IMG/VR virus record: IMGVR_UViG_3300022602_001838
Span: 17,548-81,547 of that record
Origin: a virus
Length of the DNA stretch: 64,000 nt
Direction: 5' to 3' (one strand)
Within the stretch, counting starts at the first letter, position 1; each line of letters opens with the position of its first letter. Made by a program: the position numbers and the translations under genes. The notes beneath the pieces were generated by a model. That model saw only the letters and a list, made by a program, of their open reading frames with translations. It had not been told where the DNA came from and did no database searches. Shown in pieces: positions 9,321 through 60,338 of this stretch.

Positions 9321-9688
9321 TAACTGGCCTCGCTACGTCCGTCACCTAGGTTCTTGCGATCAATGACTCGTGGACGAGCATCATATGGTTGATTAGACTC
9401 CCATTGCTCATAGTTTTCCATAGCAATGTTCTTGCAGATAGTTTGGAACCAACGATCAATGATAACATCTTCTGCTTCGTTGGGCTTGCTTTGATAGCCA
9501 GCACGAACTAGATTAGTGATGAATTTCTCATTCCAATCTAATTCAAATGCGCCATTACCCACATTGTCTGGATCAAGTTCAATGCTTATGATAGCAACAT
9601 AGGGTTCACCCGCTTCTGTTGCGATTTCTTTTGCTGTCTTTACAGCTTCTGCTGGTTTCTTAGCAGGTGTTTTCTTTACTGTGGCCAT
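9320..9688 (-). CDS. Hypothetical protein with basic Lys/Ala N-terminal tail
   Basis: I start at the ATG at 9688, which overlaps the QueE stop as TAATG and follows a GGGGA site. The first 18 residues (MATVKKTPAKKPAEAVKT) form a basic Lys-Ala-Pro tail, followed by a compact domain (VAIISIELDPDNVGNGAFELDWN, YEQWESNQPYDARPRVIDRKNLGDGR). A tail of this kind often contacts nucleic acid. Function not known. Confidence 0.6.
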   Translation of the reverse strand: MATVKKTPAKKPAEAVKTAKEIATEAGEPYVAIISIELDPDNVGNGAFELDWNEKFITNLVRAGYQSKPNEAEDVIIDRWFQTICKNIAMENYEQWESNQPYDARPRVIDRKNLGDGRSEAS

Positions 9689-10536
9689 TAGGTTCCCCAT
9701 TCATTTTTAAATAGCGGCACTTGCAATCGGTCGCTGTAACGCCAACCCTTACGCATTGCCATTTCTGCTACAGCACGATTGTTTAGACCATAGACTGATT
9801 CAACGCCGCCGCAGGGCATTAGATAAACGTGCCCTTTAAAGCCCTCTGCACGATATTCAGCTACAGTATCTTCAATCTCTTGTAAGTCAGTGTCGTGTGC
9901 TATAACAAACTTTAGATACACTGTACCAACATCTTCGTATTCGCAAACGATTTTGGGTCGGATGGCTTCTTCGTGCTTCTCGCCACTAATACTTAGTTTT
10001 GGGCTGACACTGAAAGTAATTTCACGATCTGGTGATTGTGTAGCCCAGCCACGCAAAAAGTTGTAGAAACTTGCGCTGAGTTCCTGTGTGCCATTTGTTT
10101 CAAAGGTCAGTTCTTTTAGTTCTGCCATGAAAGGGTGTGTGAGTAAGTCTGGATAACTGCGTTGCCATCCTAGAAGCGGCTCACCGCCTGTGATAACCAA
10201 GTGCGCATCCTGCCAAGCCCCTCCAGGCAATATATTCCTACAACGATCGGCAATAGCATCAATTGTAAGCATAGGACTAAGGTCCTTAAAATCAGGGTGC
10301 CAACTAGCGTAACTGTCACATCCAGTTTCTGTGAGAGGAAGTTCTTCATATTTTGTGTATAAGTGTTTGACGGTTGCAATATCATCTGCTTCTGTACTTA
10401 GTTGACCCTTGGGCATACCAAAGCCGGCGCACTTGAAATTGCAGCCAAATGTTCTAAGAAACACGCTGGGTACGCCCATATAGCGCCCCTCGCCCTGAAT
10501 ACTATAAAACAATTCTGCGATTTTAATTTTGCTCAT
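9688..10536 (-). CDS. queE: QueE-like radical SAM enzyme (7-carboxy-7-deazaguanine synthase)
   Basis: The 282-residue protein opens with KIAELFYSIQGEGRYMGVPS, the hallmark start of QueE, then SVFLRTFGCNFKCAG. Two cysteines fit the CxxxC half of the iron-sulfur motif. The third position is Phe, and the next cysteine in a QueE-like context (GCDSYASW) comes 36 residues later, so the cluster loop appears to carry an insertion. The glycine-rich SAM-binding motif is ITGGEPLL, followed by FETNGTQ. QueE converts carboxytetrahydropterin to carboxydeazaguanine, the third step toward preQ0. It is encoded with FolE, QueD-type and DpdA proteins in this window. Confidence 0.85.
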   Translation of the reverse strand: MSKIKIAELFYSIQGEGRYMGVPSVFLRTFGCNFKCAGFGMPKGQLSTEADDIATVKHLYTKYEELPLTETGCDSYASWHPDFKDLSPMLTIDAIADRCRNILPGGAWQDAHLVITGGEPLLGWQRSYPDLLTHPFMAELKELTFETNGTQELSASFYNFLRGWATQSPDREITFSVSPKLSISGEKHEEAIRPKIVCEYEDVGTVYLKFVIAHDTDLQEIEDTVAEYRAEGFKGHVYLMPCGGVESVYGLNNRAVAEMAMRKGWRYSDRLQVPLFKNEWGT

Positions 10537-10816: not shown

Positions 10817-10992
10817 ATTTGATTCCAATGTCTTAAAATACCTGCTACGATAAACAAGTTTGTCACTACAGATATTAACACAATTGCGCTACGGATACAA
10901 GCAATTAGGTCTGCTTCTCGATCCGTACCGCCAGTTTTTTCACCAAGAGCTTTCGCCCAAAGTCTCCAGAGATTACGCAAACAAGTCCTCAT
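10813..10992 (-). CDS. Small membrane protein, 59 aa
   Basis: From the ATG at 10992: a basic amphipathic start (MRTCLRNLWRLWAKAL), a charged linker with GEKTGGTDREAD, and one hydrophobic segment (AIVLISVVTNLFIVAGIL) near the C-terminus. This gives one inner-membrane span. The ATG at 11040 is in frame, but the shorter start reduces overlap with the QueD-like gene. Function unknown. Confidence 0.6.
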   Translation of the reverse strand: MRTCLRNLWRLWAKALGEKTGGTDREADLIACIRSAIVLISVVTNLFIVAGILRHWNQI

Positions 10993-11518
10993 TCCATTCT
11001 CTGTGGCCTTCACGGAAAGCCATGTTGCTCTGTGTCTCACGCACTTCTACACGGTAGCACCAAAGTCTTTTTGCTTCTCCTGGGCCCCACATTTCAGGAA
11101 TGTAAACGCCATTCACATACTTGTAGAGTTGATCACTCAGTGCTTCGCAGCCCAATGCTGGCAGCACAATGATCTTGGCCATTTTCTTTTCTTGTAGCAG
11201 TTTGAAAGTTTCAAGTTCTGGATCATCTTGAGCCACGATTAAGGTATGGTCGAACTGATCTTCAAGAAACTTCTTCAAGTCTTTCAATCCGCCATAGTCT
11301 GCGGCCCAGTTGCGAACGTCTAGGTCATCTGTACCAAAGTAGAACTTCATACTGAATGAGTATCCATGGATTAGATTACAATGGCTATCTGCACGCCACT
11401 GTCTATATGCACAAGGAAATGCATCGTGATACTCTTTTGTGCTGGTGTATTTGTATTGAACTGGATGACGAAGATACTGTCTGTAATCTTTATCTACTGC
11501 GTTAAAATCGTCTGACAT
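10973..11518 (-). CDS. queD: QueD/PTPS-family T-fold protein with altered zinc site
   Basis: The 181-residue protein aligns by eye with 6-carboxytetrahydropterin synthase. Matching segments are HCNLIHGYSFSMKF for the CxxxHGH region, ADYGGLKDLKKFLEDQFDHTLI for the DF-LK...LDH segment, and VEVRETQSNMAF for the ET end motif. The cysteine and one zinc histidine are present. The third ligand is Tyr (HGY) and the first ligand position also appears to be Tyr (CAYRQW). The family makes carboxytetrahydropterin from dihydroneopterin triphosphate. Whether this copy is active on that substrate is uncertain. It has its own promoter-like sequence upstream. Confidence 0.75.
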   Translation of the reverse strand: MSDDFNAVDKDYRQYLRHPVQYKYTSTKEYHDAFPCAYRQWRADSHCNLIHGYSFSMKFYFGTDDLDVRNWAADYGGLKDLKKFLEDQFDHTLIVAQDDPELETFKLLQEKKMAKIIVLPALGCEALSDQLYKYVNGVYIPEMWGPGEAKRLWCYRVEVRETQSNMAFREGHREWNEDLFA

Positions 11519-12746: not shown

Positions 12747-13588
12747 AATAATTTTCCAAGCAATTCTTGCGTGTCGCCCAATAAGGCACTATCAATGCTA
12801 CCAAACAAGTCTCTGGGCTGTCTTAGTTTAGTCAATTGTCTAGCACTTTTTAAAAATGGTGCATTGATCATCTTGGGTCTGTACTCTGTATTATACAACT
12901 TTGCCTTGGCCTTTGTCATGTCCATACTAGTATCCCAGTTACCAATCACACTTGCCATAATTTCTGGACTCCAGTAAAAGAATGCCCAAGGATGTTGATT
13001 GGGACTCAGAATTTCGAAATAGGCGTCACACTCATTTAGTACAAAGCCACGATAGTCTTTGGGTATGCCCTCTAGCCCACTGAATTGCTCATCAGGATGA
13101 TATTCTACTTGCATACCCGCAATTATGTGACCATTTCTGCGCTCTACTTCATCAACTAAGAGTACAGGGGTAACCCCGATGTGCAATCTTGCTCTGGTAG
13201 TTTTAAGTGCATTGCGATACACTCCGTTGTCCATTATCTCATAGCCAAAATGCAAATGCAATGGCTCAATGTTTCTGTGCTTGCACCAACGAAACGCATA
13301 GTCAGTTTCTTCTGTAGCAATTTCACCCAGTGTCATTATAACTGGTACAAAATCAATTTTGTTTCTGTACAGCACATTGGCTACGTGTTCACTGTCTGCG
13401 CCGCCGCTGAATGATAGATGCAGATTGTCATACTGTGCAGCAATTTCTTGTGCTGTTTGATCACATACTGCGTCAAAGTCCACTAGACCAGATGCTCGTT
13501 GTTTAAACTCAATTGTGAAATTTTCTTTGATGTGTCTGGGTATCTTGCCTTCCCACGACATATCTATCCAATTATTTTTTGATAGCAT
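12743..13588 (-). CDS. PP-loop ATPase, paralogue B
   Basis: 281 residues. The PP-loop motif is LHLSFSGGADSEHVANVLY, followed by FVPVIMTLGEIATEETDYAF. The aligned region and C-terminal helix (LGDTQELLGKLL against NKESLIGQLI) show common ancestry with paralogue A. No glutaminase or zinc-finger domain. It overlaps the end of the Rieske gene by 17 bases, so the two are probably co-translated. Substrate unknown; the link to an oxygenase suggests a shared small-molecule or base modification pathway. Confidence 0.8.
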   Translation of the reverse strand: MLSKNNWIDMSWEGKIPRHIKENFTIEFKQRASGLVDFDAVCDQTAQEIAAQYDNLHLSFSGGADSEHVANVLYRNKIDFVPVIMTLGEIATEETDYAFRWCKHRNIEPLHLHFGYEIMDNGVYRNALKTTRARLHIGVTPVLLVDEVERRNGHIIAGMQVEYHPDEQFSGLEGIPKDYRGFVLNECDAYFEILSPNQHPWAFFYWSPEIMASVIGNWDTSMDMTKAKAKLYNTEYRPKMINAPFLKSARQLTKLRQPRDLFGSIDSALLGDTQELLGKLL

Positions 13589-14351
13589 TTAAGTGATGCA
13601 GTTTTAAGTCTGATAGATTATTGACGGGAACGGCAACAATGTTTTCACACAATTCTTTGTCCTGTGCCCAAGCCTCTTCCCAAACAGTTTCATTCAACAC
13701 CCATTCTGCGTCTGAGATTCTGCTGTCACGATATTTGTATATGACAACATCTGTGCCCGTTGCTGTAGCAACTGCAACATTTACAAATAGTGCGCCCTGT
13801 TGCCACTCAATGGTTGTGTTGGGATAAATTGTAGTCCATACTGCATCCTGATCCTGTACAAACTGATGCGATCCACAGTCAAAGAACTCTGTACGTATTG
13901 TGGATACATCTGTGATGCCTATTTTGTCATAAACGCCCCTGTGTACTACGGGGATATGTTCTATGTCCAAGAATACATCTATGAATATTTCTGGACTAGT
14001 CTTTAGGCTGTCAACACGACATTCTACTAATTGCATAAAAGACAAGTCTATGGGATAATCAAACTCAATCTGTTCGCTGAATAACATATTGCCCACTGTG
14101 TAGACGGGCTTTGTTTCTAACTGATAACTGTTGTCTAGTCCCGTGCCCATGGAGTCAAAGCGTAGACCGTGGTAAGGACATACCATTACATCACTGCACA
14201 CCTTTTTCGCTAATAAACTATTTTGATGGGGACAAACATTGGACAACAACGATATGTGATCATTGTTTTTTGTCAGTGCCCAATGTTTGTTGAGTTGTAG
14301 TAATGGTCTAATTTGATTGTCAGATAAATTTTGGACTAATCCTAAGAACAT
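13572..14351 (-). CDS. Rieske non-haem iron oxygenase
   Basis: 259 residues. The Rieske cluster motif is C40-P-H42 with C58-P-Y-H61 (CxH, 15 residues, CxxH). A mononuclear iron motif DIEHIPVVH follows about 100 residues later, as in ring-hydroxylating and related oxygenase alpha subunits. The catalytic domain is shorter than in typical alpha subunits. It would need an electron donor from the host, because no reductase or ferredoxin gene is present here. It sits between two PP-loop genes and a cupin gene. Substrate unknown. Confidence 0.85.
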   Translation of the reverse strand: MFLGLVQNLSDNQIRPLLQLNKHWALTKNNDHISLLSNVCPHQNSLLAKKVCSDVMVCPYHGLRFDSMGTGLDNSYQLETKPVYTVGNMLFSEQIEFDYPIDLSFMQLVECRVDSLKTSPEIFIDVFLDIEHIPVVHRGVYDKIGITDVSTIRTEFFDCGSHQFVQDQDAVWTTIYPNTTIEWQQGALFVNVAVATATGTDVVIYKYRDSRISDAEWVLNETVWEEAWAQDKELCENIVAVPVNNLSDLKLHHLNAIKK

Positions 14352-31940: not shown

Positions 31941-33071
31941 TTATCCCTTGAATTGTTCCAGCAGAATAGTGATGGCTTCTCTGACACCGGGGTCGTGCAT
32001 ATAGTACTGCTTTAGGTCTTTGTCCAAATAAGCTGGTCGCTTCATTGGATCTCCTGCGATACTTTCTGACTTGCGTTTGTTTTCAAAGTAGTCCATATTC
32101 TTATCCAAATCATAGATATATGATTTTGGTTCTTGTTTGTGTCGCTTGGGGTCAGCACACAATCTATCTAAATTACTATAACTCCAAGATTGGAAGTAGT
32201 CTGTGTTATAGAATGTGTCTGCGTTGTATTGTACCAGTGTACTCTGTGCAATGGATTTTCTGCCCTTGCTGTCTCTGGTATCAAAGAATGGTCTCAGCAT
32301 ACTGAATTCCCATTTCAAATTGTAGTAATGCCACCACCACCAATCTGATATGGTGTTGATACCTTCAATACCGACTTCTTCAATGTTTGCGCTGACTTTA
32401 TCTGTGTACCAATCGGCAAAACTCTGACTGGCGCCTTTGTTAACTATGCCCTGTGCAATCAATCTTCGATTGTTGCGCCAAGGCAGTAAGTGCTGTTTAT
32501 CTGCTAACAGATACTCATACATGGGCATACTGGGTCCAAACAAACAATCTCCTGGGTCACCGTGCGCAACAATGTGCGATTTGACGAACTCATCAGTGAC
32601 ATTTAGTGTAGCAGTTTCACGGCATTCTATTTTGCCTTCTATGAATTCTTGATAGAAATGTGGGTTTTCTTCTACACTTTTTGCCGAATGATAGATAACA
32701 ATCTGTTCTAGGTCGTTAGTGTTCTTTATCAAGGCACTGAGCACACAAGTGCTATCAATGCCCCCACTCCACATCACAGCTATTCTACGATCTTGTGCAA
32801 GCAACTCTGTTGCTCTGCGATCCAACAAGTCGCTTAACTTGTCCTGAACATAATACAATTCGGGAGCAGCAAATACGGGATTGCTAGTTGCTGACCAAGG
32901 ATTAGTAAATGTGCCCTGTCTGGCTCTAAGATCGTGTAGCCCCAATACATAGAAAGCAATCTCTGCCCAATGTTGACCTTTTCCAGCAACACGCATCTGA
33001 CGTATTGGCAAACATACCATAGCACTTGACTTTAATCCGGCTAAATGGTAATCTACGTAACGTGGGTTCAT
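31941..33071 (-). CDS. Asparagine synthase-like PP-loop enzyme
   Basis: 376 residues. IAVMWSGGIDSTCVLSALI near residue 103 is the PP-loop of the asparagine synthase C-terminal domain, and VAHGDPGDCLFGPSMPMYEYLL is like its GD-x-DE segment. No N-terminal glutaminase domain, so ammonia or another nucleophile must come from elsewhere. It is the third PP-loop enzyme in the window and is longer than and distinct from paralogues A and B. A role in adenylation-dependent amide formation is likely; the substrate is unknown. Confidence 0.75.
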   Translation of the reverse strand: MNPRYVDYHLAGLKSSAMVCLPIRQMRVAGKGQHWAEIAFYVLGLHDLRARQGTFTNPWSATSNPVFAAPELYYVQDKLSDLLDRRATELLAQDRRIAVMWSGGIDSTCVLSALIKNTNDLEQIVIYHSAKSVEENPHFYQEFIEGKIECRETATLNVTDEFVKSHIVAHGDPGDCLFGPSMPMYEYLLADKQHLLPWRNNRRLIAQGIVNKGASQSFADWYTDKVSANIEEVGIEGINTISDWWWWHYYNLKWEFSMLRPFFDTRDSKGRKSIAQSTLVQYNADTFYNTDYFQSWSYSNLDRLCADPKRHKQEPKSYIYDLDKNMDYFENKRKSESIAGDPMKRPAYLDKDLKQYYMHDPGVREAITILLEQFKG

Positions 33072-39146: not shown

Positions 39147-40231
39147 TTCGTTTGTCCTGGAACAGGGTTCTGCTGTGCAGTATTTGTGCTTTGTTGTGGT
39201 TGTTGACCCGCTGGCTGATTGGTACCAGTTTGTTGCTGTGCCTGTTGAACTTTAAGTTCTTTTTGCTTGTCTACTGTATCTGCTTTGGTAATCAACTGTT
39301 TCATTTGTGCAGCAGTCTGTGGGTTTTGCAAGGCCTTGCTTGTAGCAACTGCCAATGGTTCCATTTGCTTTAACTCTTGTGCATTTAAATCAGTGTTTGG
39401 CTTGTCATCAAGTTTAGTCATAGTATCACTGAACTTGACTTTATTTAATGGCTGCGCTGCACCCTGTTGATTTAATGCTGTAGATAACTGATTGGTATTC
39501 TTTTGAATCTGTTGCTGATCCATTTTCTGTTGTTGAGCTTTTGGATCGGGATTTTGATTTGTACTACCTTGTGGGGCTTGACTAGCAGCACCATAGCCAC
39601 CAGTGCCACCATACTCGTTCAAGTCTTCTTTATCTTGCCACCAGTATTTTTGACCTGCCTGCGTAGCTTTGGTTGGACGAGCTTTTGCTTTTGGACCACG
39701 ATAGCCACGTTCCCATGCTGCTGCACCTGCTGCTGCTGATTTGCCCTGTTTAACAAAGTGAGCAATCACTGCCTGCTTGCTGTCTAGTTCTTCTGCTATG
39801 AGTTGATTTATAAATGACTCGTTGATTTCGACTGGCATCATCTTACAAACTTCTTTTTTGGTCTCTATCTTAGCACTGGGCACACGTTGTTTCAACATCA
39901 TCAAGTCTTGTTCTGCTTGTCCAAGATTGTTATATTTTGACGCTGGCTTATCATTTACATAAAGAACAAACTCGTCTGCACTTTCTTTAAACTCTTGGAA
40001 CTCACGCATTAATTGATGTGCGTTGGTACGAGGATTCTCTACTAGTGCTTTTTCTAGGTCTTTGATAATGCTTTCTTCTGCACTGCCACCAACCATTTTG
40101 TTCTTGGCCTGGCTTGCTTTGTCAGTGCCTTTCCAGTATCCAGGAAACTTTGGACCCGTTGGCTTCTTAGTATCGCTTTTCATACTTTCGTCAATGCGGG
40201 CTAACTTGCCCAACAGGTCTCGCATACTCAT
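39143..40231 (-). CDS. Gln/Ala-rich internal-type protein
   Basis: 362 residues. Leader MSMRDLLGKLARIDE followed by S. The middle has EFVLYVNDKPASKYNNLGQAEQD and NQLIAEELDSKQAVIAHF, then AAAGAAAWERGYRGPKAKA. The C-terminal 150 residues are of low complexity, rich in Gln, Asn, Thr and Pro (QQQKMDQQQIQKNTNQLS). It overlaps both neighbours by ATGA. The composition and leader suggest a DNA-associated internal head protein or scaffold-like role. Confidence 0.65.
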   Translation of the reverse strand: MSMRDLLGKLARIDESMKSDTKKPTGPKFPGYWKGTDKASQAKNKMVGGSAEESIIKDLEKALVENPRTNAHQLMREFQEFKESADEFVLYVNDKPASKYNNLGQAEQDLMMLKQRVPSAKIETKKEVCKMMPVEINESFINQLIAEELDSKQAVIAHFVKQGKSAAAGAAAWERGYRGPKAKARPTKATQAGQKYWWQDKEDLNEYGGTGGYGAASQAPQGSTNQNPDPKAQQQKMDQQQIQKNTNQLSTALNQQGAAQPLNKVKFSDTMTKLDDKPNTDLNAQELKQMEPLAVATSKALQNPQTAAQMKQLITKADTVDKQKELKVQQAQQQTGTNQPAGQQPQQSTNTAQQNPVPGQTK

Positions 40232-44798: not shown

Positions 44799-45534
44799 GG
44801 AGGTGATCTATGGGGTGAATTTTTCCTACGATGCCAGGACTAATCAATGATAAAATAGTTGCAATACTGTCATCGTTTGCGTAGATGTATGCTCCCCAAA
44901 GGGCTGGATACTTTTTCTTTAGATGTGTCAGTACACCTCCTGGGATTTTAACATCATCTCGGGCGGTTAACTGTGCCAGAATACTTCGTTTGGTTTCTAA
45001 TGGGTAATTTCCGTCTCGCAACACAATCTTGTATTTGTATTCCGTTTTGTTCAGAAACACCACATTGTTGCGCAACGCATCTTCTGTGCCAGGTTTGGGT
45101 ATGTTGATACTATACAAGTTGTCGTAAGAACTGATAGCTTCACTTATGATCTTTAGATCATATTCTGTTTCAGCATATACTTGTAGCATATTGCCCTCAG
45201 TTCTAAACTTGACTATGTGTTTGTGTGTTTTAATCACAGTGCGAACACGGTCAATCAAAAACTCATCAACATCATCCCAGTTAATATAAGGGTTGTAGGT
45301 ATAATTATTACTAGATTGATAGAAACCGCGATAGCCCATGCCTGCGTTGCCACTATTAGCAGCAAGTCTATGCTTTATAACATAGGCAACGATATCCTCA
45401 CAAAACTTGTCAGTGGCTAGATTTACCTTTTTTATATCATACACCAACCGCCACAAGTAGCGGTTGAAGTATTGTTTTTTGGTAGTCTCTAGCTTGATAT
45501 TGTGATTTAGATTAACCCAATACGATGAATCCAT
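44794..45534 (-). CDS. Hypothetical protein, 246 aa
   Basis: I choose the ATG at 45534 (MDSSYWVNLNHNIKLE); ATGs at 45540 and 45600 are also in frame. The protein overlaps the end of the ClpA-like gene by 23 bases. It has an N-terminal helical part (YFNRYLWRLVYDIKKVNL) and a C-terminal alpha/beta part (VLRDGNYPLETKRSILAQL). A possible substrate adaptor for the neighbouring unfoldase; this is inferred from position only. Confidence 0.6.
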   Translation of the reverse strand: MDSSYWVNLNHNIKLETTKKQYFNRYLWRLVYDIKKVNLATDKFCEDIVAYVIKHRLAANSGNAGMGYRGFYQSSNNYTYNPYINWDDVDEFLIDRVRTVIKTHKHIVKFRTEGNMLQVYAETEYDLKIISEAISSYDNLYSINIPKPGTEDALRNNVVFLNKTEYKYKIVLRDGNYPLETKRSILAQLTARDDVKIPGGVLTHLKKKYPALWGAYIYANDDSIATILSLISPGIVGKIHPIDHLQ

Positions 45535-47803
45535 TTTCATCCACTTGAGGTTGATGGGTAGTAATCGTACTGAATTCAAACTTGTCATCGTTGAAATCAA
45601 TTTCGACTGTGTTGTTTGGAGCGATGCCTTCGAACAAGATTTTCTTGCTCAATGGAACTTTGATTAGTTCGTTGATCTTACGACCCAACGGACGAGCACC
45701 CATCTTGCTGTCATAACCAACTGTGGCCAGATGATCAACTGCTGCTTCGCTCAAACGAACTCTTATACCCTTTTCAGATAACAAGTCGTTGAGTTCGTTG
45801 ATAAACTTGGCAACGATTTTCTTGACACTGAATGTATCCAACTTGTTGAACTTGCAGATAGCATCAATACGATTGCGGAACTCTGGCTTAAAGTAGTCTT
45901 TGACTGCTTTGTCATCTTCGCCACTGCGCTCAAGATCACGACCAAAGCCGATTGCATTACGCTCATTAGCGGCAGCACCCAAGTTACTAGTCATAATAAT
46001 GATAGCATTACGAGCATCTGCTTTTTTACCACTGCTGCTTGTGACTGTACCTTCATCCATCAGACTCAGCAACACATTGCTAACGTCTGGGTGAGCTTTT
46101 TCGATCTCGTCAAACAAGATGATACTATTTGGATTCTTTTCCAAATCACTGATCAACAGGCCACCACCCAAGTTGCCGTCATCATAGCCAACATAGCCAG
46201 GGGGCGCACCAATCAGTTTGGCTGCTGTGTGTTTCTCTTGATATTCGCTCATATCATAGCGAACAAGTTTCATACCCAAGTTGTCAGCAAGCAATTTAGC
46301 CAGTTCTGTTTTACCAGTACCTGTTGGACCCAAGAACAAGAAACTTCCAATGGGCTTGTTCACAGATTTCAACCCAGCACGACTGACATAAATCTTTTCA
46401 AGCACATTCTCAACGACCTGATCTTGACCATAGAGCTTAGTGCGAATGTTTGATTCGAGGCTTTCTAGACTCTTGACTGCTTCGCTGCCAATCTGCTCTG
46501 CTGGAATCTTGACTGCTTTGGCAATAGCTTCAACGATGTTGCTTTTCTCACAGACTCGTTGACCTTGCACAGAGATTTTGAGTTTGGCACAGGCAGTGTC
46601 GATCAGGTCAATTGCCTTGTCTGGCAAACGTTTGTCTGACTGATAACGTACACTCAGATCCACTGCTGCATCAATGGCTTCGTCTTCAATCTGAACTTCG
46701 TGGAATTTTTCAAAGTGCTCACGCAGACCACGCAAGATTTCTTTTGACACTGTGGGAGTGGGCTCATCTACGCCCAAACGATAGAAACGGCGCATTAACG
46801 CACGATCTTTTTCAAAACTTTGGTTATATTCTTCCCACGTTGTACTTGCGATGACCTTGATAGTGCCCTTAGTCAATGCTGGCTTAATCATATTGGCAAA
46901 GTCAACTGAACTTTGTGCACCACTGCCAGCACCCTGCATTTGATGTGCTTCATCAATGAACAAGATACACTTGCCTTTTACAGTCAGTGCCTTGATAACA
47001 TCTTTGAACTTTTCTTCAAACTCACCACGATACTTCGAACCAGCCAACAATGAACCAATGTCCAAGTTGTAAACGTGATAGTCACGCAGATAATCTGGTA
47101 CGTTGAGTTGAACAATGTTCAAGGCTAAGCCTTCTGCAATAGCAGTTTTACCCACACCAGGATCGCCCACCATCAAGACATTTGACTTGTTGCGTTTGGC
47201 CAGAACGTGTGTGATTTCTTCAAGTTCGTATTCACGACCGATCACTGGATCAATCTTGCCTTCAAGTGCCAACGCATTCAAATCAGTACAATACTCATTT
47301 AGAATGTCTGTGGCCTTTTTGTCATTGGCTGTTTTACGACCAGTTTTTGCGTTGTAGAAGTGATTGTAGTATTCAATGAGTTCATCACGGTCTTCGATAC
47401 CATATTTCAACAAGAAGTAAGCAGCCTGACTGTTTGTTTCTTGACTGATACTGATGACCAAATCGATCACAGTCAGACTACGGCGAGACGAGAACAAGAC
47501 CTGTGTCAGCGCACGATTTAGCACACGCTCAACGCTGTGAGTTCTGCGCGGAGTTGTATTTTCTTCGCTGATTAAGAATGTTTGCTGGGCCAGATAAATT
47601 TCGACGTCCTGAGACATTCCCTGAATATCGACTCCATAGTTGTCCAGAAGTTTACCGAATGGTTCATAAGTGATGATACCATACAGAATGTGTTCCAGAG
47701 TTACATATTCGTGATTATAGTATTTGGCCTTTGCGGTGGCCGAATCGATGATTACTTCGATTTCGGGATTGGGTTGGATCATCTTATCGTTTTCCGTTGA
47801 CAT
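45512..47803 (-). CDS. ClpA-like AAA+ unfoldase
   Basis: 763 residues, near the 758 of E. coli ClpA. The N-domain is about 1-150 (two Clp_N repeats). AAA1 has Walker A GDPGVGKT at 213-220 and Walker B CILFIDEAHQM. AAA2 has GPTGTGKTELAK and IILFDEIEKAH. The loop near residue 615 reads NAIGFGRD, matching the IG(F/L) tripeptide that docks to ClpP. A phage-encoded ClpA would therefore be able to recruit host ClpP. The 763-residue length leaves no room for a middle coiled coil, which separates it from ClpB. Late promoter upstream, ribosome site GAGGA. Confidence 0.92.
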   Translation of the reverse strand: MSTENDKMIQPNPEIEVIIDSATAKAKYYNHEYVTLEHILYGIITYEPFGKLLDNYGVDIQGMSQDVEIYLAQQTFLISEENTTPRRTHSVERVLNRALTQVLFSSRRSLTVIDLVISISQETNSQAAYFLLKYGIEDRDELIEYYNHFYNAKTGRKTANDKKATDILNEYCTDLNALALEGKIDPVIGREYELEEITHVLAKRNKSNVLMVGDPGVGKTAIAEGLALNIVQLNVPDYLRDYHVYNLDIGSLLAGSKYRGEFEEKFKDVIKALTVKGKCILFIDEAHQMQGAGSGAQSSVDFANMIKPALTKGTIKVIASTTWEEYNQSFEKDRALMRRFYRLGVDEPTPTVSKEILRGLREHFEKFHEVQIEDEAIDAAVDLSVRYQSDKRLPDKAIDLIDTACAKLKISVQGQRVCEKSNIVEAIAKAVKIPAEQIGSEAVKSLESLESNIRTKLYGQDQVVENVLEKIYVSRAGLKSVNKPIGSFLFLGPTGTGKTELAKLLADNLGMKLVRYDMSEYQEKHTAAKLIGAPPGYVGYDDGNLGGGLLISDLEKNPNSIILFDEIEKAHPDVSNVLLSLMDEGTVTSSSGKKADARNAIIIMTSNLGAAANERNAIGFGRDLERSGEDDKAVKDYFKPEFRNRIDAICKFNKLDTFSVKKIVAKFINELNDLLSEKGIRVRLSEAAVDHLATVGYDSKMGARPLGRKINELIKVPLSKKILFEGIAPNNTVEIDFNDDKFEFSTITTHQPQVDENGFIVLG

Positions 47804-47816
47804 GGGTCCTCACAAA

Positions 47817-47824
47817 TATTTATA
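47817..47824 (-). promoter_or_regulatory. T4-type late promoter (TATAAATA)
   Basis: Exact TATAAATA on the minus strand, 13 bases before the ATG of the ClpA-like gene, overlapping the dnaJ stop codon. Confidence 0.65.
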
Positions 47825-48668
47825 GAGTTGATTTGATTTTGTTTACCAGTTCCAGCTGCTCTTGTGAGAGATTTCTTGGAACAGTAACGTTGATTTTAAC
47901 AATTAAATTGCCTCTTGTCGAGCCGTGAAGTGCCCAAATACCCTGATTTTTCACTCTGAGCATTTGTCCGGGCTGTGTGCCTGGGGGAACTGTAATAATA
48001 AGTTTACTGCCCTCAAAATTGGTCACTTCAATATCTCCGCCAGTGATTGCTGTCAAACAGTCAATGTCGTGGAACGTGCCCACATCCTGCTCCATAACTT
48101 CAAAGTTTGGGTGTGGCTGCATAATAATCTGCACGTACAGATCACCACGAGTAAGAGTGTCAAAGAAGTTATCACCCAATCCTGGATACTTGATTTGGGT
48201 ACCCTGGACTGCGCCTCTGGGCACAGTGATTTCTACGTTCTCTCTGGTACCTTTTGTGGTCTGTATGCTGACTGTGACATTTTGGTCTTCCATAATACTG
48301 GCCAGTGTCACTGCTACTCTGACCTGTAAATCTTTGTTGCGTCTGGGTTGGTGTTGTCTGAATGGATTTTGCCCACCAAAGTTGAAACCAAAGTTGCGCA
48401 ACATTTCTTCCATATGCGGTGGCATACCATCGTGTATGTCGTGACCATTTACATTGAATCTGAATCCACCGGGATTGCGGCGTTCGTGGTCATACTGCTC
48501 ACGCTGTGCTGGATCACTCAGAACCCTGTAGGCACCTTCAATCTCTTGGAACTTGGCAGTGTCCCCGCCCTTGTCTGGATGATGCTGACTGGCTAACTTG
48601 CGATAAGCTCGTTTGATTTCTTCTGGTGTGGCATTCTCACCAACGCCCAGTGTATTATAGTGTGTCAT
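47820..48668 (-). CDS. DnaJ/CbpA-like co-chaperone
   Basis: 282 residues. The J-domain (residues 1-60) has [17 protein letters not shown] with the HPD tripeptide, and [14 protein letters not shown] Gly/Phe-poor linker follows, then a CbpA-type C-terminal substrate-binding domain ([37 protein letters not shown]). The cysteine-rich zinc region of DnaJ is missing. It would act with host DnaK. It lies next to the ClpA-like gene, and the pair suggests phage-directed protein remodelling. Confidence 0.88.
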
Positions 48669-48971: not shown

Positions 48972-48979
48972 TATAAATA
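48972..48979 (+). promoter_or_regulatory. T4-type late promoter (TATAAATA) of the metabolic cassette
   Basis: Exact TATAAATATTT on the plus strand, 19 bases before the ATG at 48999. The only promoter-like element for the three plus-strand metabolic genes. Confidence 0.65.
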
Positions 48980-48998
48980 TTTACATCTTCCCACGATT

Positions 48999-50354
48999 AT
49001 GCTTCCAGAATTAAATGGTCTGCCCTTGAATGTAGACCCAAATCAAACTGCCATTATTTTTAAAAACGAGTCAATGACATATGGTCAGCTTGACCAGTAT
49101 GTTCAGGGTATTGCCAATACCTTAGTCTATGATGGCTACACTGGCGGATACAAAATAGCCATCATAGCCAAAAATTCACTAAACTCGTTTGCACTGTATC
49201 TTGCTTGCAGACGCACCAACAATGTTGCAGTAATGATAAATTGGAAACTACCCAAAACAATGCAAGAGAAAATGTTATTGGACTGTGATGTATCCATAGT
49301 ATTCAGAGATGAGCACTTAGATGCCCTGATAGTCACAGACGGCGCACTAGAACACAAATGTGATGCCAATGCTGCTGCGCTGTTTTTGTTTACCAGTGGC
49401 AGTTCGGGAGACCCAAAGGCAGCAATCATTACAAATGGCAACAGACAAGCAACTGTAAAACGACTGCACAAACCTTCACAGCACAATATTAAAATTGTAC
49501 CGACTCCTCTCTATCACATCAACGCACTGAACATAGCCGAACACACGCTGTCTATAAATGGTACTATCATATTGGTCTCTGAATTTAATACCACTGAGTA
49601 TATAAATTTGTTAGTGCAGTACAAACTCACACAAATTGCTCTAGTACCCAGTATGATGGCTATGTTACTCAAAGACCCATCTATTACAGAACACGACTTT
49701 TCTTTTGTTCGTGGTATAATAATGGCAACAAGCCCAGTCAGCGAGAAACTATACCAAGAAGTCAAACGTGTATTTTATAAATCTGATATTAGCATAGGTT
49801 ACGGACTTACAGAATTTGGTCCAGTATTTGGTCCACCGCCCAAGGGTCTAGCACAGCCTGCAATGAGCTGTGGGTACCCACAGGCAGAGATAGAGTGCAA
49901 ATTAGTAGATGGAGTTTTGCATCTCAGAGGTGCAAGTATGAGTCAGGGCTATTATAATAGCAACAGTTCTCGTATTGTAGATGGATGGTTGAATACTGGC
50001 GATGTGTTCAGAGTTGACGAAAACGGATTCTATTTCTTTGTGGGCAGAGCCGACGATATGTATAAAGTGGGGGGTGAGCAAGTATACCCTACAGAAATAG
50101 AACAGGTGCTGGAGCGTGTTGAGGGTGTTGCAGAAGCCTGTGTGGTTATGCTAGAAGATGATGTAAAGGGCTATAAGCCATATGCATTCTGTACTGGTAC
50201 ATTTGAACAAGATGCTGTAAATGCTGAATTACTAAAACAGTTACCCAGATTTAAAATACCCAGAAAGATATGGAAGTTGCCAGAAATGCCCTTGATGGGC
50301 GTTGGCAAAGTGGATCGTAAATTATTAACAAACAAAGCAAGGGAAATGATATGA
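48999..50354 (+). CDS. Acyl-CoA synthetase / AMP-dependent ligase
   Basis: 451 residues, somewhat short for the family (about 500-550). The phosphate loop is ALFLFTSGSSGDPKAAI, with GYGLTEFGPVFGP, then WLNTGDVFRVDENGFYFFVG and GRADDMYKVGGEQVYPTEIEQ (hinge and A8). The catalytic lysine is in MGVGKVDRKLL. Members activate carboxylates as acyl-adenylates and usually load them onto CoA. It overlaps the dehydrogenase by ATGA, so the three genes are one unit. The substrate is unknown. This is a metabolic, not structural, gene behind a late promoter. Confidence 0.92.
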   Translation: MLPELNGLPLNVDPNQTAIIFKNESMTYGQLDQYVQGIANTLVYDGYTGGYKIAIIAKNSLNSFALYLACRRTNNVAVMINWKLPKTMQEKMLLDCDVSIVFRDEHLDALIVTDGALEHKCDANAAALFLFTSGSSGDPKAAIITNGNRQATVKRLHKPSQHNIKIVPTPLYHINALNIAEHTLSINGTIILVSEFNTTEYINLLVQYKLTQIALVPSMMAMLLKDPSITEHDFSFVRGIIMATSPVSEKLYQEVKRVFYKSDISIGYGLTEFGPVFGPPPKGLAQPAMSCGYPQAEIECKLVDGVLHLRGASMSQGYYNSNSSRIVDGWLNTGDVFRVDENGFYFFVGRADDMYKVGGEQVYPTEIEQVLERVEGVAEACVVMLEDDVKGYKPYAFCTGTFEQDAVNAELLKQLPRFKIPRKIWKLPEMPLMGVGKVDRKLLTNKAREMI

Positions 50355-51067
50355 ATAAACTAGCAGTTGTCACTGGTGGGTTTGGTGGAATAGGTTATGC
50401 AGTAGTTAAAGAACTAGATGCACTGGGCTATGGTATAGTCATACTGAGCAGAACCGCAGAATCAGAAGAAAATCAGGCAAAACTTGCAGCATTGACCACA
50501 GATCGAAAAATGGCAATAAACTGTGATGTAACTGTGGCAGAGCAAGTAGAGTCTGCGATCTTTACAGTAGTTAAAGATTATGGAAATATTGACATACTGG
50601 TAAATTGTGCGGGTTGGACACAGCCGGTTGTTCACACAAACTTAGATGACTTATCAGATATGTTATTTGACAAGATTGTGGTATCTAATCTACGCAGTGT
50701 GTTTACTGTTGTTAGGGCTGTGAATCCGTTTTTGAATAACGATTCAGTCATAGTCAACATTGGGTCTGCTTCTGCTGCTAGACGTGGTGGTAGTAGTCTA
50801 GCCTATACAGCCAGTAAAGCCGGAGTAGAAAGTTTGACCAGAAATCTCGCAGTAGCACTGGCACCCAAGACTCGTGTAGTCGTAGTGTCTCCTGGATTTG
50901 TAGACACTGGGTTCAACTCTAATGCCAACAAGTATCTTGCAATCTCATCGACTCCAATGGGCAGAGTTGCCACACCAGAAGATGTAGCAGACGCAGTGGT
51001 CTGCGCTATCAATAATAAATTTATGACTGGCAATATGATTGTGGTCGATGGTGGCAGAAGTATATGA
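50351..51067 (+). CDS. Short-chain dehydrogenase/reductase (FabG-like)
   Basis: 238 residues. The cofactor motif is TGGFGGIGYAVVKEL (TGxxxGxG). NCAG at the NNAG position, catalytic Ser in IVNIGSASAARRG, and Tyr-x-x-x-Lys in YTASKAGVESLTRNLA. The end is GNMIVVDGGRSI. FabG-like enzymes reduce or oxidise beta-keto or beta-hydroxy acyl intermediates, which fits the neighbouring ligase and beta-keto acid cleavage enzyme. Confidence 0.93.
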   Translation: MNKLAVVTGGFGGIGYAVVKELDALGYGIVILSRTAESEENQAKLAALTTDRKMAINCDVTVAEQVESAIFTVVKDYGNIDILVNCAGWTQPVVHTNLDDLSDMLFDKIVVSNLRSVFTVVRAVNPFLNNDSVIVNIGSASAARRGGSSLAYTASKAGVESLTRNLAVALAPKTRVVVVSPGFVDTGFNSNANKYLAISSTPMGRVATPEDVADAVVCAINNKFMTGNMIVVDGGRSI

Positions 51068-51924
51068 AAACTATTCTGACCTGTGCTGTGACTGGTGCTG
51101 GTACTACCATTGAGCAGACTCCTCATTTACCTGTAACCCCCGAGCAAATTGCCAACTCAGCTTTAGAGGCAGCTAGTGCTGGTGCTGCTGTAGTACACAT
51201 TCACGTTCGTAATCCTGAAACAGCCAAACCCAGTATGGATATAAATCTCTACAGAGAAGTTGTTGACAGAATCAAAGACAAGAACACTGATGTTCTTATA
51301 AATCTGACAACAGGACCCGGAGCAACTGGTCCGGCAACTGCTGTGTATGGCATTAAACATCCTGGATTTCAATTACCCAACAAACGTGTTGAACATATCA
51401 TTGAACTCAAGCCAGATATTTGCAGTCTTGATTTGAACACTATGAATAGAGGGCCGCAAAATATCACTGTGAACACAATCGAAAATGCCAGAATTATGGC
51501 TCGTGCAGTTCAGTCTGCGGGTGTTAAGCCCGAACTAGAAATCTTTGACAGCGGTGATTTAGAAATTGCCAAGATGTTGATAGCAGAGGGCACTATTCAA
51601 GGACAGTCAATGTGGCAAATCGCAACTGGTATCAAGTGGGGTTGGCCTGGCAATATATCTACACTAGAGTATGCTAAACAATTACTGCCCAGAGACGCTA
51701 CTTGGTATGCGTTTGGTATAGGTGCAATGCAGATGCCATTTGTTGCGCTGAGTACAATCAGTGGGGGACACGCCAGAGTCGGACTTGAAGACAATATCTA
51801 TCTGACTAAGGGTGAGTTGGCAAAAACAAACGCACAGCTTGTTGAAAAGGCTGTGCGTATTATACGAGATATGGGCAACGAGCCAGCAACACCTGCTGAG
51901 GCTCGTGCCATTCTTGCAATTTAA
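51064..51924 (+). CDS. Beta-keto acid cleavage enzyme (BKACE family)
   Basis: 286 residues. The N-terminus MKTILTCAVTGAGTT and the zinc motif VVHIHVRNP (H45, H47) are family hallmarks. The third ligand region is SGGHARVGLEDN. BKACE enzymes convert a beta-keto acid plus acetyl-CoA into acetoacetate and an acyl-CoA; substrates include 3-keto-5-aminohexanoate and dehydrocarnitine. With the SDR and ligase this forms a beta-keto acid route. It ends convergently with the next minus-strand gene, sharing a few bases. Confidence 0.9.
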   Translation: MKTILTCAVTGAGTTIEQTPHLPVTPEQIANSALEAASAGAAVVHIHVRNPETAKPSMDINLYREVVDRIKDKNTDVLINLTTGPGATGPATAVYGIKHPGFQLPNKRVEHIIELKPDICSLDLNTMNRGPQNITVNTIENARIMARAVQSAGVKPELEIFDSGDLEIAKMLIAEGTIQGQSMWQIATGIKWGWPGNISTLEYAKQLLPRDATWYAFGIGAMQMPFVALSTISGGHARVGLEDNIYLTKGELAKTNAQLVEKAVRIIRDMGNEPATPAEARAILAI

Positions 51925-52196
51925 ATCACACTACAAGTAGCAGCTTCTTGCATCATAACAGTGCTGTCGCTGCCGACTCTGATATCACCGTAGCCACTGA
52001 TAAGCACAGTAAAATCACCGTCAGTAAGTGGCAACACTTTCATAGTACCACTTTGATCTCCGCTGCCCAAATCGATGGGTTGTGCGATGTTTGGAATAGT
52101 GAGTTGTGTGTCACTGAATCCTGTAGAACTATATGTAATAGTAACTGGATTACCCAATGTCACTGATGTTTCACGTATGCTAATTTGTACTTCCAT
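51921..52196 (-). CDS. Hypothetical protein, 91 aa, Ig-like fold
   Basis: Strand-rich (VQISIRETSVTLGNPVTITYSS, TDGDFTVLISGYGDIRVGSD), consistent with a small Ig-like or beta-sandwich domain. It lies directly below the FG-repeat holin gene. Possibly a structural protein. Unrecognised. Confidence 0.6.
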   Translation of the reverse strand: MEVQISIRETSVTLGNPVTITYSSTGFSDTQLTIPNIAQPIDLGSGDQSGTMKVLPLTDGDFTVLISGYGDIRVGSDSTVMMQEAATCSVI

Positions 52197-56426: not shown

Positions 56427-57368
56427 TTAGCAGTTTTTGATGTTGTCTACAAGACCGCTGGTAAAGTAATCGTCATACATTGCGTATACGTCTGCGGTGA
56501 TTGCTTTGAATTTAGCCATTTCGGCATCACTCATACGAACAACTTCAACATTGTTTTGTTCGCATTCAGCAAGAATGTTTGGAATATCAGCAACGCTTTC
56601 ACGGCGTTCTGCACGGGCTGCATTAAATGCTGCTGTGCTTAGAATTTGCTGGACTTCTGGACTGAACTCTGCGAAGAAATCTTGGTTAACAATGATGCTA
56701 GTCAAGAATAAACTGTGTGCTGTGTCGTTAACAACTTTGAATGATTTGTATTGACCCAATGGGAAAACACGAACATAAGTTGATTCCCCAGCTTCAATAA
56801 CGCCTTTGTCAGCGTATTCGTTCATGGCTTCGAGACTGATGTGTTCCATTGGTTCAGCACCAAGCAATTTGAATGTATCAACTGCTACAGGGCTACGACT
56901 TGTACGAACTTTGCGACCTTTCCAGCTGTCTACTGTGTCTGCTTTGAAGTTTGCAGGCACAATGCGATAACCGCCGCTGTAAGTGAAGGCAAGACCTTTG
57001 ATGTTGCTAGTTGCGCTAACACCGTCTAACAATCCACGACCAATAGTACCTTCTAGTACACGGTCAGCATGATCGTGATCTTTGAAGATGAATGGTAAGT
57101 CAAGTGCGTGTAAGTCTTTGTTATAGTCACCCAACCAAGTAGTGTAGATGTGTGACATTTCGATAGCTCCGCTGTTGATAAGATCCATCAGATCATATTT
57201 GGTAACGGCTTTGCCATCATTATATTTTGTTGCATAATCGCTGAGACTAAGAACTTCAATGTTAAACAGACCATTGGTTTTTTCATTGACTTCTTTGGCA
57301 AAGCGTTCAGCTACTTTTAAGAACAATCCGATAGGTTCGTGAGCGATAACCCATTTAATATGTTTCAT
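56427..57368 (-). CDS. TRAP-transporter solute-binding protein, DctP type, without signal peptide
   Basis: 313 residues. DctP-fold features: KTNGLFNIEVLSLSDYATKY, GAIEMSHIYTTWLGDYNKDLHALDLPFIFKDHDHA, RIVPANFKADTVDSWKGRKVRTSRSPVAVDTFKLLGAEP and the ligand arginine region. The family binds C4-dicarboxylates or related acids in the periplasm for a membrane permease. This protein starts at the mature sequence (MKHIKWVIAHEPIG) and the in-frame upstream sequence does not encode a signal peptide. No permease gene is present. A late promoter-like octamer lies 51 bases above the start. Confidence 0.85.
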   Translation of the reverse strand: MKHIKWVIAHEPIGLFLKVAERFAKEVNEKTNGLFNIEVLSLSDYATKYNDGKAVTKYDLMDLINSGAIEMSHIYTTWLGDYNKDLHALDLPFIFKDHDHADRVLEGTIGRGLLDGVSATSNIKGLAFTYSGGYRIVPANFKADTVDSWKGRKVRTSRSPVAVDTFKLLGAEPMEHISLEAMNEYADKGVIEAGESTYVRVFPLGQYKSFKVVNDTAHSLFLTSIIVNQDFFAEFSPEVQQILSTAAFNAARAERRESVADIPNILAECEQNNVEVVRMSDAEMAKFKAITADVYAMYDDYFTSGLVDNIKNC

Positions 57369-59357: not shown

Positions 59358-60338
59358 TTATTCCTTGGATAAGTCTAGTTTACTTAGCACTGGCAAGAAC
59401 GTTGCTCGTAGTTCTTCCATATGCTTGCGTAAGCCTGCAGGAGTTAGTTCGCTTTCTTCGTAAAAGATAACCTGACCTTCCATATACTCACGATACTCAG
59501 GGCTATGGATGGCTGCACTAAAAGTACGTTGATACCAGTCTACAATTTCCTTGGGTGTGTTGGGTGGCAGTTCAATACTCCAAGCTGCATAGACATTGAT
59601 ACCTGGCGCTACGTCTTTGAGTAGTGGCACATTGGGATACTGTGGCATTTTGTGTGCGCCAGTAAATCCAATTGCTTTTACTCGGCCCGCGTCAACTAGT
59701 GCTTTGGCTACAGCAATGGGCATAATACCAAACTCTGTTCCAACTTTGCCATCATAACTGGCCACGCTTTGTACTGCTGGAACTGGACCATTGAACTTGA
59801 TTGCCTTGACAATATCGGGATTTCCGTGTGCCTTGTTTAGCAAATATTCAAAAGCTGTACGATGTGCCCCGCCTCCAGTTGCAACGTTGATAGGGCTAGT
59901 TGCAGTGCGTATTAGACGCATAAACTGCTCGGGAGTATTAACATCACTCTTGGGACTAGCAACCAAAACTAGCGGACTTTTGCCAATGGTCATAACATCA
60001 ATGAACGTATCGTAGTTGTACTTTTTGATATTCTTTTCCCAAATGTCATTGGTAACATAACTGCTCATATGACTGGGCAAGTTGATAGTATACCCGTCTG
60101 GTGCAGCATCCAAAAACTTGTTATTGGCAACAACACTGTCTGCTCCTGGCATACACTGTACAACATAGACAAATTTTGAGTCTGAGTTCTTTTGTACAAT
60201 TTCTGCCAATTTACGAAACGCAATTTCGTTGCCCGCGCCGGGGGCATTACCTACCAATACTGTAACGGGTTTAGTGGGCTCCCACGCAAAAGCCAAAATG
60301 GGTACGAGTAGCAATAATGCTAGAAATTTTTTCATCAT
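59358..60338 (-). CDS. TctC/Bug-type tricarboxylate-binding protein
   Basis: 326 residues. A signal peptide is clear: MMKKFLALLLLVPILAFAW, cut likely after FAW or AFA. The mature protein begins EPTKPVTVLVGNAPGAGNEI, followed by VVANNKFLDAAPDGYTI. Conserved tail pattern NVYAAWSIELPPNTPKEIVD. The family binds carboxylates in the periplasm for the TctAB permease. No permease gene is present, so it would feed a host system. The AAAGGAACT ribosome site follows a TATAAGTA element and an exact octamer further up. Confidence 0.9.
   Translation of the reverse strand: MMKKFLALLLLVPILAFAWEPTKPVTVLVGNAPGAGNEIAFRKLAEIVQKNSDSKFVYVVQCMPGADSVVANNKFLDAAPDGYTINLPSHMSSYVTNDIWEKNIKKYNYDTFIDVMTIGKSPLVLVASPKSDVNTPEQFMRLIRTATSPINVATGGGAHRTAFEYLLNKAHGNPDIVKAIKFNGPVPAVQSVASYDGKVGTEFGIMPIAVAKALVDAGRVKAIGFTGAHKMPQYPNVPLLKDVAPGINVYAAWSIELPPNTPKEIVDWYQRTFSAAIHSPEYREYMEGQVIFYEESELTPAGLRKHMEELRATFLPVLSKLDLSKE

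Follow-up and report, generated by a model that had tools for sequence, protein, structure and literature searches.

The window analyzed here, a stretch of 64,000 nucleotides, corresponds to positions 17548-81547 within the 81,547-base record IMGVR_UViG_3300022602_001838 of the IMG/VR database. Between positions 40000 and 60414 of this window, a cassette of three genes forms the sole block on the plus strand, all of its neighbours being encoded on the minus strand. The first gene (48999-50354, +) encodes an AMP-forming acyl/aryl acid ligase of the ANL superfamily (451 aa), the second (50351-51067, +) a classical SDR oxidoreductase (238 aa), and the third (51064-51924, +) a beta-keto acid cleavage enzyme (BKACE, PF05853; 286 aa). 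Stop and start codons overlap as ATGA both between ligase and SDR (50351-50354, +) and between SDR and BKACE (51064-51067, +), and the stop of the BKACE gene shares 4 bases with the stop of a convergent gene (51921-52196, −). An earlier note, made from the sequence alone, had described three overlapping genes on the strand opposite to their neighbours, with clean edges and the structure of an operon, and all of these features are borne out. A gene for a ClpA/ClpB-like ATPase and an adjoining DnaJ gene (45512-48668, −) lie immediately upstream of the cassette; by reading, DnaK-, ClpX- and ClpS-like genes are found close to the cassette copy in phage contig L004.

The octamer TATAAATA is located at 48972-48979 (+), and reading of the sequence places the first ATG of the cassette (48999) 19 bases further on. 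No Shine-Dalgarno-like sequence was seen ahead of this ATG in the window. The octamer is mildly over-represented (6 sites versus 2.2 expected), which by itself is weak evidence. Across the whole 81.5-kb record, where 8% of occurrences would be expected close to gene starts, ATAAATA has 14 of 22 there (P = 8.5e-11) and TAAATA 22 of 49 (P = 5e-12). This genome-wide enrichment of ATAAATA before genes makes a T4-type late promoter credible. Moreover, a TAAATA stands no more than 60 bases ahead of the cassette both in the window and in contigs L002, L004, L010, L140, L145, L146, L149 and L152, so that a chance origin of the motif is unlikely. The cassette of L145 is preceded by the exact octamer; in L002, where the octamer was likewise expected, the sequence upstream of the cassette reads just CTTAAATA. 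We predict that the motif preceding the cassette is a T4-type late promoter, a credible assignment that agrees with the late-promoter-like octamer of the earlier note.

Enzyme families and active sites

Pfam places the three proteins in the families previously proposed for them (acyl ligase, SDR and beta-keto acid cleavage enzyme), the last assignment being supported by a structure model, and the family-level chemistry predicted for the cassette enzymes is well supported. The ligase contains AMP-binding (PF00501, 1.9e-48) and AMP-binding_C (PF13193, 2.9e-9) domains. In an alignment, the P-loop TSGSSGDPK, the GRADD region and the C-terminal lysine region are all kept, and both domains with their conserved motifs identify the protein as a member of the ANL superfamily. 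Its relatives in the PDB are MenE, a fatty-acyl-CoA ligase and NRPS A domains. None of the curated NCBIfam substrate subfamilies was reached, the best score being 253.9 bits against a cut-off of 476. An identity as acetoacetyl-CoA synthetase was considered and finds no support in NCBIfam.

The SDR (Pfam adh_short_C2, 1.3e-49) retains the Gly-rich motif and the catalytic Ser-Tyr-Lys triad (Ser139/Tyr152/Lys156) in alignments. Every viral copy aligned carries an Arg after strand 2, which suggests use of NADP(H). With an SDR apparently of the NADP(H) type, reduction fits at least as well as oxidation, which counts against a catabolic reading of the cassette.

The BKACE matches PF05853 over residues 2-285 (profile positions 1-273 of 274; 6.9e-95, 317.9 bits). 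Its AlphaFold model (pLDDT 87) adopts the TIM-barrel fold of the Cupriavidus crystal structure 3C6C (TM 0.92) and of Kce (2Y7F; TM 0.86). The predicted Zn ligands, His45, His47 and Glu242, follow the His-x-His plus Glu arrangement of both reference enzymes, and Arg238 and Asp243 are conserved as well; all five residues align with 2Y7D and are invariant across the BKACE alignment. Unlike classic Kce, however, the phage enzyme has Phe161 in place of Tyr145, and therefore lacks the classic catalytic Tyr, and its Gly13 aligns with the Glu of the Kce motif 'TGAETT', which we take to be the residue binding the substrate amine. Since Phe occupies site 161 in 80 of the 82 aligned BKACE sequences, including 3C6C, it marks a subgroup and does not exclude BKACE membership. 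A BKACE of the lysine-fermentation or 3-dehydrocarnitine type was considered and is disfavoured, with Gly13 standing where the amine-binding Glu would be. Compared with near bacterial relatives, viral BKACEs have A12 instead of N, M224 instead of F and usually A221 instead of R. These are likely pocket positions, so the viral substrate may differ from the bacterial one.

Distribution and history of the cassette

BKACE genes were found in 39 IMG/VR contigs, that is, the window and 38 others, collected from scans with BKACE, ligase and alignments plus one DctP contig. They include T4-like contigs of 345 kb and 207 kb with a T4-like polymerase. The polymerase of the window itself belongs to the T4-like family phrog_262, with the jumbo phages Phosso (52%) and Atu_ph07 (48%) as its nearest matches. 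Contig L002 carries the cassette at the same locus, with identical gene order, ATGA overlaps and flanking genes. The order ligase-SDR-BKACE occurs in 19 contigs including the window, a count that takes in two partly covered loci (L156, L221) and one with a broken BKACE (L158). In L146-L148, a 721-aa ligase::SDR fusion (in L146, ligase residues 14-467 and SDR residues 471-721) is followed by BKACE, while the gene order in L012 is ligase-BKACE-SDR; the remaining contigs have SDR-BKACE or BKACE alone. A nearby ligase is missing in L006, L132 and L155, and both ligase and SDR are missing from the vicinity of BKACE in L009 and L140, indicating that the trio is not obligate. Proteins of ~360 aa with an AMP-binding domain replace the full ligase near SDR-BKACE in L007 (5021-6100), L008 (4959-6056) and L011 (4380-5462). 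The BKACE of L158 (6980-7676) is split in two ORFs and is whole in the close relatives L149, L150, L151 and L153.

A single clade unites the 27 distinct viral BKACEs and sets them apart from 55 others (support 1.0 in FastTree and UFBoot 100 in IQ-TREE). This clade is nested among proteobacterial SDR-BKACE pairs, and its descent from them is shown at the sequence level. Identities to the window are discordant between polymerase and BKACE, amounting to 79% and 51%, respectively, for L152, 65% and 59% for L133, 64% and 57% for L122, 63% and 57% for L159, and about 30% and 62% for L010, which indicates that the cassette has been exchanged between phage lineages and retained. Its codon use lies inside the phage's own range and its GC content is phage-like. 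For BKACE, dN/dS against L002 is 0.08, indicative of purifying selection; for ligase and SDR the ratio is not usable owing to saturated dS. Host-type enzymes are thus kept under selection in genuine phage genomes, as befits an auxiliary metabolic module, and the single origin of the viral BKACEs, the exchange between lineages and the gene fusion together argue for a shared pathway. Judged by these comparisons, the cassette is old, maintained and traded among large aquatic T4-like bacterial viruses. A recent pick-up of the cassette is contradicted by the phage-like codon use and GC content and by the depth of the viral BKACE clade.

AMP ligases and SDRs are common in bacteria and some relatives miss part of the trio, as might be expected if the cassette were passenger host DNA useless to the phage, or mis-binned bacterial sequence. 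Against this stand the 38 further contigs, two of them >200 kb with a T4-like polymerase, the single viral clade, the phage-like codon use and the dN/dS of BKACE, and we consider this explanation extremely improbable, indeed already refuted. The same evidence, together with the L002 locus, rules out host contamination and an assembly join; the earlier note had named absence from related phages, or presence only as such a join, as grounds for abandoning the cassette, and the opposite was found.

Nearly all of the best 80 cellular BKACE matches are from Burkholderiales (54-59% identity). In the bacterial loci read, an SDR gene is located directly upstream of the BKACE gene, in the company of an intradiol dioxygenase (PF00775), a Zn-ADH-type enzyme and TctC. 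These proteobacterial clusters (Limnohabitans, Paraburkholderia and an Agrobacterium plasmid; L013, L021, L071, L212, L233, L242) share the position of the SDR with the phage cassette, and in L021 also the overlap of SDR stop and BKACE start; TctC lies near several of them. Unlike the phage cassette, most add the dioxygenase and the Zn-ADH-type enzyme and no adjoining ligase was seen, while on the Agrobacterium plasmid the pair lies near an intradiol dioxygenase and, as the added enzyme, a maleylacetate reductase. The top match of a viral SDR profile was the BKACE-adjoining SDR in three of five bacterial genomes (275-284 bits versus at most 156 for the next match). In G270 the top match lies ~7 kb from BKACE, and in G390 no SDR was found beside BKACE. 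Orthologs of the ligase were present in seven of 399 sampled genomes (408-471 bits), none of them beside BKACE in six neighbourhoods and G294, ORF calling being crude in these GC-rich loci. As the bacterial ligase relatives examined do not lie beside SDR-BKACE, the three genes probably came together in phages. Wholesale capture as a unit, as suggested previously, is at odds with this pattern, in which the SDR-BKACE pair is bacterial but the ligase relatives lie elsewhere.

Candidate pathway and partner genes

SDRs interconvert hydroxy and keto groups, BKACEs convert a beta-keto acid and acetyl-CoA to acetoacetate and a shortened acyl-CoA, and ANL ligases make CoA esters at the expense of ATP. 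In the cassette, the SDR would interconvert a 3-hydroxy and a 3-keto acid, and the 3-keto acid would lose its acetyl end to acetyl-CoA through the Zn enzyme BKACE, with acetoacetate and a shortened acyl-CoA as products; if the acid is beta-ketoadipate-like, this acyl-CoA would be succinyl-CoA. The ligase would use ATP to convert a carboxylate to its CoA ester, the candidates being the feed acid and acetoacetate. The net effect would be conversion of a host acid pool to CoA-thioesters late in infection. Both the order of steps and the substrate are what we infer from the enzyme families. We assign a probability of about 55% to the reading that large T4-like aquatic phages retain and exchange the cassette as an auxiliary metabolic operon with SDR, BKACE and ligase chemistry of this kind, its transcription probably starting late from a promoter of its own.

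By homology, the closest mechanistic comparison for the phage cassette is the bacterial ring-cleavage SDR-BKACE pair. The occurrence of the bacterial homologs in ring-cleavage clusters makes beta-ketoadipate-like acids more plausible as substrates than carnitine or amino acids. The carnitine-like or amino-acid-derived acids proposed in the earlier note are accordingly disfavoured, by this aromatic ring-cleavage context as well as by Gly13, and its description of a self-contained carbon-breakdown unit is unsupported, breakdown being one possible direction.

Like known auxiliary metabolic genes of T4-like and jumbo phages, the cassette combines host-type enzymes in lytic-type genomes with a late-type promoter motif. 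It differs from them in the enzyme family itself: INPHARED contained neither a protein-level match to BKACE nor a DNA-level match to the cassette, PHROGs contained no BKACE match, and no fold close to BKACE was present in the viral structure library. A phage BKACE was not found in the literature either, in a search of open-licence papers in which absence is no proof. The statement in the earlier note that no such phage gene was known to be reported is therefore upheld for the literature and phage databases searched. The cassette appears to be a real phage metabolic operon, apparently unreported, that is older and wider in distribution than first noted. With it, the repertoire of large lytic-type phages gains a recurring operon of three enzymes and an enzyme family apparently not reported there before, and two questions become testable, namely which host acid is processed late in infection and whether BKACE serves breakdown or synthesis.

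A DctP-type (TRAP) solute-binding protein (56427-57368, −; Pfam DctP 3.6e-43) is encoded downstream of the cassette in the window. The protein has no signal peptide and should therefore stay cytoplasmic, which hints at chemistry outside standard auxiliary-gene lists. Of the 23 loci examined, 12 combine the cassette with such a signal-less DctP protein, and DctP was present in all nine BKACE contigs >75 kb checked (the window, L007, L008, L009, L012, L122, L133, L152, L159). The converse association is weak, with BKACE in one of 11 DctP contigs tested (the 170-kb G405 was found via DctP, not BKACE).

A synthetic role comes into consideration through BsfD (9ZSC), the nearest PDB sequence to the phage BKACE (E = 3e-80, 272 bits), which belongs to the cluster for the antimicrobial flavophos (PMC12871164). 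The Tyr is thought to be catalytic in classic BKACEs, whereas BsfD has Phe there, like the phage enzyme, and makes a different product (PMC12871164). By analogy, BKACE would acetylate a beta-keto acid but omit the second cleavage step, and ligase and SDR would act before or after it in making a small molecule, which might be an antimetabolite, a signal or a decoration; the DctP-like protein would bind this product in the cytosol. The similar long loop after strand 3, the NADP-type SDR, the ligase::SDR fusion and the recurring signal-less DctP all agree with such a module. However, the Phe is subfamily-wide and also present in bacterial enzymes of ring-cleavage clusters, so that Phe161 was rejected as proof of BsfD-like chemistry; Arg91 of BsfD, which contacts the phosphonate of its substrate, corresponds to Thr88 in the phage enzyme; and no transport, resistance or phosphonate genes were noticed beside the cassette. 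We therefore regard a synthetic module as unlikely. Also rather unlikely is a small-molecule pathway particular to phages, built from the ligase, the NADP-type SDR and a non-classical BKACE, whose product would be bound inside the cell by the DctP-like protein lacking a signal peptide and would serve host control or chemical conflict between phages or with the host instead of carbon supply.

The gene content also resembles the deoxyribonate oxidation pathway, in which SDR and BKACE are clustered and acetoacetate requires activation (PMC6365646). Here, the SDR would oxidize 2-deoxyribonate, derived from the sugar of DNA that a DNA-degrading phage could provide, to the 3-keto form, BKACE would generate glyceryl-CoA and acetoacetate, and the ligase would activate the latter. 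In contrast to that pathway, no lactonase, MFS or glycerate kinase gene was noticed beside the phage cassette. Furthermore, NAD+ was used to assay deoxyribonate dehydrogenase, whereas the phage SDR appears to be of the NADP type; the ligase did not rank as an acetoacetyl-CoA synthetase, and the nearest bacterial clusters are those of ring cleavage. Salvage of deoxyribonate is thus very unlikely, and the auxiliary operon described above remains our preferred reading.

Several further genes recur around the cassette. The phage DctP proteins, seen in the window, L006, L007, L008, L010, L095, L101, L103, L112, L122, L132, L133, L145 and L155, are consistently devoid of a signal peptide. Between the window and L002, DctP is 94% identical, higher than the other genes compared; next to BKACE in the near-identical L136, L137, L140 and L141 (and at the start of L143) it is apparently split in ORFs of 156 and 162 aa. 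The window also encodes a TctC-type solute-binding protein (59358-60338, −; Pfam TctC 4.5e-20) whose N terminus contains a hydrophobic, signal-like segment. Phage TctC-type genes near the cassette were found in L007, L012, L122, L133, L145 and L155 as well; the N termini of most of the encoded proteins are signal-like, and the genes sometimes lie in pairs. They are frequent among the cassette loci examined, as are PP-loop/asparagine-synthase-like genes, which occur in the window (31941-33071), L006, L007, L008, L010, L011, L122, L132, L133, L136, L145 and L155, with several in a row in L136. A Rieske [2Fe-2S] protein (13572-14351, −; Pfam 3.7e-9) has relatives near BKACE in L009 and L145. Finally, reading of the window points to 7-deazaguanine genes of the QueE/QueD type (9688-10536 and 10973-11518, −), which may indicate modified DNA.
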